Positions 46,837 to 48,731 of a stretch of DNA of 64,000 bases are shown piece by piece. Source of the DNA: Achromobacter pulmonis (GTDB taxonomy: Bacteria; Pseudomonadota; Gammaproteobacteria; Burkholderiales; Burkholderiaceae_B); the NCBI RefSeq assembly GCF_002885955.2, contig NZ_POQS01000002.1, positions 598,303 through 662,302 on the forward strand, read 5' to 3'. Position 1 is the first letter of the stretch. Every line of letters begins with the position of its first letter. The position numbers were made by a program, and so were the translations under genes. The notes beneath the pieces were generated by a model. It made no database searches and was not told where the DNA came from. It saw only the letters and a program-made list of their open reading frames with translations.

Positions 46837-47949
46837 ATGCGGGCGGACATCTTCTGCCGGGTCGTCGACAACTACGGCGACATCGGCGTGTGCTGGCGCC
46901 TGGCCCGCCGCCTGGCGCACGGCCGCGGCTGGGACGTGCGCCTGTGGGTCGACGACCTGGCCAGCTTCGCCCGCATCCAGCCCGGCATCGCGCCCGGCCT
47001 GGCGCAGCAGCGGCTGGCCGGCATCGACATCCAGCACTGGAGCGACGCGCCGGACCCCGCCCTGGCCTCGCGCGACGTGGTGATCGAGGCGTTCGCCTGC
47101 GATCCGCCCGCGGCGTTCCTGGAAAGCATGCGGCGCCGGCCTCCCGTCTGGATCAATCTGGAATACCTGAGCGCCGAGTCCTGGGTCGAAAGCTGCCATG
47201 GCCTGCCCTCGCAGCGGCCGGACGGGCTGGTCAAGCATTTCTTCTTTCCCGGTTTTACCGAAGCCACCGGCGGCCTGCTGCGCGAGCCCGGCCTGTCGGT
47301 CGAACGCGACGCGCTGCAGGCCTCGACGGATGCGCAAATCGCGTTCCTGCGTTCGCTGGGCGTGGGCGAGGAGCTGCTGTTGCGCCGCCGCGACGGCGCC
47401 CGCACCGTGTCCCTGTTTTGTTATCCCAGTGCGCCGGCGGCCGAGCTGGTCGGCGCGCTGGCGGCCGATCCGCGCCCCAGCGTGCTGCTGGCCCCCGAAG
47501 GCGTCGCGCCCGGGCTGGAAGCCGCCTGCGCGGCGCCCGGCGCGCCGCTGCTGGCCCGTCTGCCCTTCGTGGCGCAGCCGGACTTCGACCGCCTGCTGTG
47601 GTGTTGCGACCTGAACTTCGTGCGCGGCGAGGATTCTTTCGTGCGCGCCGCCTGGGCCGCGCGCCCGCTGGTCTGGCAGATCTACCCCCAGGACGGCAAC
47701 ATCCACCTGGAAAAGCTGGAGGCCTGGCTGGCGCGCTATCCGGCCCCGGAAACCGCCCAGGCCCTCATCCGCGCCTGGAACCAGCCCGAGCCCGGCCGGA
47801 CGGCGGCCGCGCTGGCCGCCGCCCTGGCGCCGGATGCCTGGAACGGCTGGGCCGAGGCGGCCCGGGCCTGGGACGCCAGCCAGGCCGCGCGGCCCGACCT
47901 GGGCGAAAATCTGGCCGATTTCTGCGCAGAGTTGGCGAAGAAACGTTAG
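46837..47949 (+). CDS. earP: EF-P arginine rhamnosyltransferase EarP
   Basis: Glycosyltransferase of 370 aa that attaches rhamnose from TDP-L-rhamnose to Arg32 of translation factor EF-P. The EarP signature DNYGDIGVCWRLARRL carries the conserved Asp11 and Asp15, and RGEDSFVRAAWAARP contains Glu265, the counterpart of the essential Glu in characterised EarP proteins. GT-B inverting fold with a nucleotide-sugar site in the second half. It lies directly upstream of efp, whose product has Arg at the target position, so the pair is functionally complete. Confidence 0.95.
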   Translation: MRADIFCRVVDNYGDIGVCWRLARRLAHGRGWDVRLWVDDLASFARIQPGIAPGLAQQRLAGIDIQHWSDAPDPALASRDVVIEAFACDPPAAFLESMRRRPPVWINLEYLSAESWVESCHGLPSQRPDGLVKHFFFPGFTEATGGLLREPGLSVERDALQASTDAQIAFLRSLGVGEELLLRRRDGARTVSLFCYPSAPAAELVGALAADPRPSVLLAPEGVAPGLEAACAAPGAPLLARLPFVAQPDFDRLLWCCDLNFVRGEDSFVRAAWAARPLVWQIYPQDGNIHLEKLEAWLARYPAPETAQALIRAWNQPEPGRTAAALAAALAPDAWNGWAEAARAWDASQAARPDLGENLADFCAELAKKR

Positions 47950-47965
47950 AATAGAGAGTTTTCCG

Positions 47966-48103
47966 AGAGCCCTGTATTTTGTCGGGCCTCAACTATGACG
48001 CCTCCCGGGGTGTGCACTAAGCCCAGGCGCCGGCCTTACGGCCAGCTTCCCGGGGGCTTTCTGCTAGCACGGCGAGTGCACCTATCACCCCGGAGTTTTA
48101 TCG
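47966..48103 (+). promoter_or_regulatory. Structured leader of efp (candidate cis-regulatory RNA)
   Basis: The gap between earP and efp can form one large folded unit by eye. CTCC (48002-48005) pairs with GGAG (48092-48095), the efp Shine-Dalgarno; GGGGTG (48007-48012) pairs with CACCCC (48086-48091); TGCACT (48013-48018) pairs with AGTGCA (48075-48080). Inside, AAGCCC (48019-48024) pairs with GGGCTT (48054-48059) and encloses GGCC-TTAC-GGCC (48032-48043). An alternative CCCGGG/CCCGGG pairing (48004-48009 with 48049-48054) would free the ribosome site. The two exclusive states are what a translational switch needs. A TAGAAT -10-like box is at 47947-47952. Not computed; needs folding and covariation tests. 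Confidence 0.5.
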
Positions 48104-48201
48104 ATGAAAACCGCTCAGGAACTGCGAGTCGGCAACGTGGCCATGGTTGGCAAGGACCCCCTGGTGGTCCAGAAGGCCGAATACAACAAGTCCGGCCGTA
48201 A
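47995..48201 (+). CDS. Candidate leader ORF with Pro-Pro-Gly stall motif, overlapping efp
   Basis: An ATG in the efp leader opens a 68-codon frame starting Met-Thr-Pro-Pro-Gly-Val. Codons 3-5 (48001-48009) form Pro-Pro-Gly, a known EF-P-dependent pause sequence, and lie on the 5' arm that pairs with the efp ribosome site. The frame runs past the efp start in another phase and ends at TAA 48199-48201. The upstream ribosome site is weak, so translation is uncertain; only the first few codons may matter. No homology recognised. Confidence 0.25.
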
Positions 48202-48664
48202 CGCCGCCGTGGTCAAGCTGAAGTTCAAGAACCTGCTGACCGGCGCCGCCAGCGAATCGGTCTACAAGGCCGACGAAAAGTTCGAAGTCGTCCAGCTCGA
48301 CCGCAAGGAGTGCACCTACTCCTACTTCGGCGACCCGATGTACGTCTTCATGGACGAAGAGTACAACCAGTACGAAATCGAAGCCGACAGCATGGGCGAC
48401 GCCCTGAACTACCTGGAAGAAGCGATGCCCGTGGAAGTGGTCTTCTACGACGGCCGCGCCATCTCGGTGGAACTGCCCACGACCATCGTGCGCGAAATCA
48501 CCTACACCGAACCCGCCGTGCGCGGCGATACCTCGGGCAAGGTGACCAAGCCGGCCAAGATCAACACCGGCTTCGAACTGAACGTGCCGCTGTTCTGCGC
48601 CATCGGCGACAAGATCGAAATCGACACCCGCACCAACGAATACCGCAGCCGCGTCAACAACTGA
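48104..48664 (+). CDS. efp: Translation elongation factor P
   Basis: EF-P of 186 aa, three beta-barrel domains: KOW-like N-terminal domain ([18 protein letters not shown]), OB domain ([20 protein letters not shown]), C-terminal OB domain ([22 protein letters not shown], given in part). It relieves ribosome pausing at consecutive prolines. The domain I loop YNKSGRNAA has Arg32 at the tip, the residue rhamnosylated by EarP, rather than the Lys used by EpmA systems. Ribosome site CGGAG is 9 nt before the ATG and can be sequestered by the leader. Confidence 0.97.
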
Positions 48665-48677
48665 TCGGCCACGGACG

Positions 48678-48714
48678 AAAAAAATGCCAGACCTTCGGGT
48701 CTGGCATTTTTTTT
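48678..48714. terminator. Rho-independent terminator of efp
   Basis: Stem ATGCCAGACC with GGTCTGGCAT (48684-48693 and 48698-48707), UUCG-type tetraloop TTCG, preceded by seven A and followed by eight T counting the last stem base. It acts after efp and, by its symmetry, could also end transcription from the right. Confidence 0.93.
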
Positions 48715-48731
48715 GGCTGGCGGGCCTTTTT

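Follow-up and report, generated by a model that had tools for sequence, protein, structure and literature searches.

The gene for elongation factor P (EF-P), efp, follows earP, the gene for the EF-P arginine rhamnosyltransferase, in Achromobacter pulmonis, and the gap between the two genes raises the question of whether it controls efp and by what means. In this study, we analysed the gap in a window of 64,000 nucleotides of this genome, with positions counted from the first letter of the window, and in related bacteria. We read the gap as a cis-acting leader RNA that controls the translation of efp, in which one anti-Shine-Dalgarno (anti-SD) strand is shared by the efp Shine-Dalgarno (SD) sequence and an SD-like decoy, and we put the probability of this reading at about 0.6. 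The features are collected in Table 1.

Table 1. Features of the earP-efp region, in window coordinates.
Feature	Position	Strand	Remark
earP, EF-P arginine rhamnosyltransferase gene	46837..47949	+	Pfam PF10093, E 5.1e-132
TAGAAT, -10-like box of probable efp promoter; first half is the earP stop codon	47947..47952	+	arrangement shared by 41/41 Achromobacter
efp leader (earP-efp gap, 154 nt)	47950..48103	+	match in 41/43 genomes of the genus
Candidate leader ORF of the sequence-only reading, rejected	47995..48201	+	start, frame and SD not conserved
Anti-SD strand GCCTCCCGGGG	48000..48010	+	kept in Achromobacter and Bordetella-type leaders, flanks differ
P2 5' arm GTGCAC	48012..48017	+	pairs with 48076-48081; two pairs changed on both sides between genera
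Variable hairpin P3, base 48019-48024 with 48054-48059	48019..48059	+	by eye in alignment; middle length varies between species
Conserved block CGGCGAGTGC, SD-like decoy; pairs with GCCTCCCG (48000-48007), two bulges	48070..48079	+	RNAalifold choice; 8/8 pairs invariant in 37/37
P2 3' arm GTGCAC	48076..48081	+	pairs with 5' arm 48012-48017
CCCCGGAG, efp SD and upstream Cs lengthening the pairing	48088..48095	+	7/8 anti-SD:SD pairs invariant in 37/37
efp, elongation factor P gene	48104..48664	+	Pfam EFP_N, EFP, Elong-fact-P_C

The gap and its Pro-Pro-Gly reading frame

An earlier sequence-only reading of the window had placed earP, efp, the SD core GGAG (48092-48095), the facing CTCC (48002-48005) and an ATG at 47995, and all of these positions were correct. 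The two genomes of the genus without a leader match, out of 43, had a completeness of 78% and 57%. An alignment of 46 distinct leaders, five of them labelled Bordetella, showed conservation of TAGAATAGAGAGTTTTC at the earP stop, of GCCTCCCGGGGTGTGCA, and of GCWAGCACGGCGAGTGCACC...CCCCGGAG ahead of the efp ATG, with a freely variable middle. In the Bordetella-labelled leaders, the part from the promoter box to the block had mostly diverged and GCCTCCCGGGG and ACGGCGAG were retained, except in L040, which has no block and was excluded from alignment A1. The length of the gap ranged from 127 to 247 nt within Achromobacter, and that of the variable hairpin differed greatly (L014, L029, L033, L113-L121). 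The stretch GCCTCCCGGGGTGTGCA had a single exact match in the genome; two further matches, each with 2 mismatches, were considered as copies of the block and taken as chance.

A TARAAT box with the earP stop as its first half was present in all 41 Achromobacter leaders and at 64 of the 115 loci examined; in the Burkholderia-type loci among those shown, the -10-like box overlapped the earP stop or was located just before it. We only infer the efp promoter, because a consensus scan, which is a weak test, gave no sigma-70 pair in the leader. A consensus scan also gave no intrinsic terminator in the leader. Its silence is weak since it left unreported an evident inverted repeat with a T run after efp. 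This strong repeat, ATGCCAGACC TTCG GGTCTGGCAT at 48680-48718, lies directly after efp with A and T runs and is a terminator by eye. In the leader alignment, a short T run was found behind P3 in many species.

The ATG at 47995 is followed by ACG CCT CCC GGG and reads Met-Thr-Pro-Pro-Gly as had been claimed, with the Pro-Pro-Gly codons at 48001-48009 overlaying the anti-SD strand. The sequence-only reading had proposed that, when EF-P is low, a ribosome stalled at Pro-Pro-Gly in this frame (47995-48009) occupies the anti-SD arm, so that the efp SD is exposed. Because CCTCCC reads Pro-Pro, an anti-SD strand can bring proline codons into a leader incidentally, so conservation of the start and the frame has to be tested first. 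Both the ATG and the Pro-Pro-Gly codons were kept in 35 of the 41 Achromobacter leaders, in favour of this proposal. They were lost in six of these close relatives, with ATT or CTG in place of the ATG in four, a one-base shift in one and Pro-Ala-Gly in one, and the losses need at least 4 changes on the tree. None of five SD-like tetramers tried occurred at -16 to -4 of the leader ATG position in any of the 41 leaders. There was no synonymous change in the Pro-Pro-Gly codons of these leaders, and the sole change in them (CCT GCC GGG in L121) altered the peptide and kept the RNA pairing.

The Bordetella-type leaders were examined in the same way. The letters CCTCCCGGG were intact in all 21 block-bearing leaders. 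However, an in-frame TGA was located two codons ahead of them in 15, and 17 had no in-frame ATG, GTG or TTG upstream. In the other four (L155, L157, L158 and L159), an in-frame ATG was located at a distance of 11 to 76 codons upstream, and in no case at the same place. The frame after Pro-Pro-Gly also differed in extent between species, running for about 12 codons in some and overlapping efp in others. Judged from these sequences, the constraint is on the RNA rather than on the codons. Since neither start, frame nor SD is conserved, the proline codons are a reading of the anti-SD strand and not a conserved sensor. The EF-P-sensing leader ORF was therefore not supported, and we regard control by ribosomes stalled in it as extremely improbable.

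The anti-SD strand and its two partners

We next consider the pairing itself. The pairing of CTCC(C)GGGGTG with CACCCCGGAG was confirmed, with a duplex energy of -15.6 kcal/mol. In the window alone, this duplex exceeded chance by little (p 0.065 against dinucleotide shuffles), and the folding of the whole region was not unusual (z -0.61; 59 of 200 shuffles as good). The opening cost of the efp SD was 5.9 kcal/mol, which ranked 6 among the 57 ORFs of the window, some of which are perhaps not genes. The pairing by itself is thus near chance in the window, and it is conservation that raises it above chance. The anti-SD GCCTCCCGGG (48000-48009) was found in all 41 Achromobacter leaders, identical in 40 and with one pairing-preserving substitution in the remaining leader. 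The strand was also present in 21 of the 24 leaders of two Bordetella-type genera (g7 and g8). The block was absent from the other three (L176, L181 and L182) and from all six leaders of genus g9.

Alignment A2 was built from 37 leaders, namely 19 of the 41 Achromobacter and 18 of the 21 block-bearing Bordetella-type leaders; those with a long middle were left out. The one anti-SD:SD pair that varied in A2 was kept in 28 of the 37. P2, which adjoins the anti-SD:SD arm, changed from U-A to C-G in 18 sequences and from A-U to G-C in 8. It had 26 cells changed on both sides against 8.7 +/- 5.1 in shuffles, with 0 of 500 shuffles as high, and these changes probably represent few evolutionary events. 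The anti-SD:SD arm was mostly invariant, and invariant pairs yield no covariation. The broader claim of a conserved efp leader with an anti-SD able to sequester the SD gained support from conservation across relatives. A structured, SD-pairing efp leader is well supported.

The same anti-SD strand can pair with a second conserved element, whose core is CGGCGAG (48070-48076) and which we call the decoy because of its resemblance to an SD. In an unconstrained RNAalifold prediction with 45 leaders, the anti-SD strand was paired with CGG(C)GAG(Y)GC and not with the SD. The sequence-only reading had also suggested an alternative partner, a CCCGGG pairing (48004-48009 with 48049-48054). The window contains both halves of this pairing, but only 2 of the 41 Achromobacter leaders had the second CCCGGG, which is therefore not a conserved part. 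The idea that a competing partner exists for the anti-SD held, though the conserved one is the decoy CGGCGAG and not CCCGGG.

Both GCCTCCCGGGG and ACGGNGAG were fixed between Achromobacter and the Bordetella-type genera, with diverged flanks. Invariant pairs are neutral on pairing as such; what they show in this comparison is that both partners are under constraint. A trans-acting protein (EF-P, a ribosomal protein or another RNA-binding protein) could recognise the block near ACGGNGAG and stabilise one fold, giving autoregulation. The retention of ACGGNGAG in 40 of the 41 Achromobacter and all 21 block-bearing Bordetella-type leaders agrees with such recognition. However, the genera with a compact leader, described below, do not keep the block letter for letter, and pairing alone could account for most of its conservation, so that we consider a binding protein unlikely.

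A compact form of the leader in part of the family

The Alcaligenaceae set contained 268 genomes of 43 genera, of which 215 had efp at E <= 1e-98. Outside Achromobacter, leaders were sampled from 103 of the 174 efp-bearing genomes, covering 27 genera and leaving out five efp places among the matches listed, and 20 further stretches were added later. By eye, 15 of the 25 sampled genera besides g7 and g8 showed the three-part layout of anti-SD, decoy and SD, with letters and loops that differed. Its compact forms include TGCTCCGG - loop - CTGGCGGAGCA - spacer - CCCCGGAG - ATG and CTCCGG - loop - CCCGGAG - spacer - CCGGAG - ATG, and variants also occur. Two of the 15 genera (g12 and g38) had weak SD complementarity. 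The layout was absent from g9 (6 of 6 leaders), g31, g39 and 3 of the 15 leaders of g7. The long efp leaders of g9 (L154, L163, L169 and L171) share, by eye, a GGCAATGGTGCCAGCGACGCC...GGCGTCC inverted repeat and have no anti-SD layout.

A shared-anti-SD statistic, with a floor of 0.0099 in a shuffle test, scored how well one strand can pair both with the SD and with a partner further upstream. The median p was at most 0.04 in 12 of 28 genera of the family, which are not independent since they share ancestry; of 13 leaders taken from related families, 2 reached this level. Single sequences of Achromobacter, g7 and g8 were not significant (medians 0.10-0.21), and the p of 0.020 for the window itself rests on its window-specific CCCGGG partner.

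For alignment A3, 39 leaders were picked for their layout from the 73 outside g1 (Achromobacter) and g7-g9, and 36 were used after removal of 2 duplicates and L192; percentages from A3 are not family rates. In five rows (L203, L246, L247, L235 and L188) the register is visibly off, and these rows were kept unchanged. The anti-SD:decoy covariation score was 0.166 against 0.132 +/- 0.011 in shuffles, with 0 of 500 as high. When the register of the decoy stem was slid, both-sided cells numbered 10 and 14 (8 in a third register) against 7, and the two registers with 10 and 14 had fewer paired cells and a lower score than the unslid one. The SD pairing showed slight covariation (0.088 against 0.075; 11 of 500), and two slid registers scored higher. 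Little covariation is expected here because the ribosome fixes the SD. C-to-U changes in the anti-SD arm of compact leaders preserve both pairings through G-U pairs.

A covariance model, R1, was built from the 36 A3 leaders. It matched once each in 78 of the 268 family genomes, in 22 of the 43 genera, and in no Achromobacter genome. In 64 of the 78, the match was verified to adjoin efp; 12 of the other 14 had no comparable efp place and 2 were on other contigs than an efp match at a contig end. Genera with no sequence in the model (g14, g18, g29, g32 and g35) also showed the three parts. In g27, one of three leaders showed them; the other two, together with g40, matched R1 without a good anti-SD. 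Among 399 genomes of the order, R1, run with strict filters that may lose weak matches, gave 3 matches, all within this family.

These leaders also bear on two other explanations. The first is a simple hairpin upstream of the SD, which would stabilise the 5' end of the mRNA or insulate the start site, and in which the complementarity to the SD is incidental to a GGAG 3' arm and nothing switches. Leaders with a hairpin ahead of the efp SD and little or no anti-SD complementarity were observed in g11 (L178 and L180), g27 (L274 and L276) and g12 (L184-L200). The last genus is Castellaniella-like and retains the hairpin with mostly weak SD pairing. These leaders, and the covariation that is clearer in hairpin pairs than in SD pairs, speak for a simple hairpin, though they may instead be a decayed or different form. 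On the other hand, the 5' arm keeps its SD complementarity in 93% of 215 cells of A3, an alignment selected for layout and thus not unbiased. By eye, L235 has a shifted hairpin register (TCCTG/CAGGA) and nonetheless retains CTCC. The Cs that lengthen the pairing on the SD side are likewise fixed in Achromobacter. We consider a simple hairpin possible though rather doubtful. The second explanation is that the conserved blocks are DNA elements, that is, parts of an operator or promoter. Their position downstream of the -10-like box fits this, but the arms of compact leaders stay complementary over loops whose length varies between 7 and 24 nt, 14 of 252 cells are G-U pairs, and one pairing partner is the SD itself. 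DNA elements therefore have a very small probability.

Two further candidates were rejected in the compact leaders, both of them upstream ORFs. A TG was found at the start of the 5' arm in 20 of the 36 A3 leaders, preceded by T in 9, A in 5, C in 4 and G in 2, so that 16 of the 20 can be read as a start codon. An ORF from this position was rejected because the base before the TG shows no preference of the kind expected for a selected ATG and 16 of the 36 have no TG; the codons after the TG are not Pro-Pro. An ORF using the decoy as its SD was rejected as well, with an NTG at 4-12 nt past the decoy in only 1 of the 36 compact leaders.

Folding, proposed switch and known systems

In compact leaders, the probability of the decoy hairpin exceeded 0.5 before the SD was made in 31 of 35, and its median was 0.14 once the SD was made. 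The early formation of this hairpin and its weakening thereafter suggest that these leaders are open at first and closed later. In the Achromobacter and Bordetella-type leaders, the decoy fold had a probability above 0.5 before the SD in 6 of 37 and in the full leader in 0 of 37, and it is not favoured in energy. Forcing the decoy fold changed the modelled opening of the SD from 0.21 to 0.35 (median of the 37 leaders), and in the window it lowered it from 0.43 to 0.26. The two folds are nearly equal in energy, which was set aside as evidence because both partners share GGAG.

Across genera, conservation, complementarity to both partners and pairing-preserving changes are shown at the level of sequence. 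We consider a two-state switch in the efp leader likely; that both folds occur in the cell, that they affect EF-P output and that their balance is regulated, we infer. In the proposed mechanism, pairing of the anti-SD with the SD would keep initiation low, and the SD would be freer when the decoy holds the anti-SD. The decoy is transcribed before the SD and would capture the anti-SD during transcription. A newly made transcript would then be open, and it would close if neither a ribosome nor some other binder loaded onto it. RNA folding is probably what tunes the production of EF-P. The decoy may further be a true SD mimic. Free 30S subunits, or ribosomes that are stalled or carry EF-P, would then compete for it and leave the anti-SD to pair with the SD. 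We hold this extension to be improbable. If it were true, the leader would read the supply of initiating ribosomes and match EF-P output to it with no leader peptide and no small ligand. An efp leader RNA common to much of the family would offer a direct handle on the control of EF-P levels. The decoy-SD layout, in which two SD-like sequences can pair with one mRNA strand that mimics the 16S anti-SD, is a compact design and possibly a general sensor.

In the mgtA and mgtB genes of Salmonella, the leader ORF is the regulator. Consecutive proline codons were proposed for the efp leader too, but unlike in mgtA and mgtB, the start codon, frame and SD of its ORF are not conserved. Control of both Salmonella genes is EF-P-dependent according to passages of two reports (PMC6460261, PMC5299641). 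Passages of another report describe CruR of Bordetella pertussis as a conserved protein-coding upstream ORF that acts through Rho and has a proline-containing stall motif, RAPP; in them, an efp knockout had no effect on this system (PMC9426467). As far as these passages go, CruR is similar in belonging to the Alcaligenaceae and in placing a proline-containing stall motif upstream of the regulated gene, whereas no ORF is conserved in the efp leader. PMC3110155 links a transcript of B. pertussis to rpsB. The efp leader resembles ribosomal protein autoregulatory leaders in being a leader RNA on a gene of the translation machinery. Among the matches listed in a literature search, judged by title and the start of the abstract, with preprints and most subscription journals outside its range, no paper on control of efp by its leader was found, and passages of three further papers held nothing on the efp leader.

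In the expression platform of a translational riboswitch, either the SD or an anti-anti-SD holds the anti-SD. One such riboswitch is that for adenine in Vibrio (PMC8342710). By eye, the leader alignment held no aptamer-like conserved junction, and the middle hairpin is variable. Rfam 15 gave no match at the gathering score in the window, and in ten loci of the family it gave one chance-level match (E 0.36), which was outside the leader. Lacking a known aptamer and a matching Rfam family, the efp leader was not filed as a riboswitch. We read it as an undescribed translational leader RNA. Unlike a translational riboswitch, it has no identified aptamer or ligand and belongs to no Rfam family, and its competing partner resembles an SD. 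Like one, it has a single strand complementary to two partners, of which one is the SD; the two pairings would exclude each other and would act on initiation.
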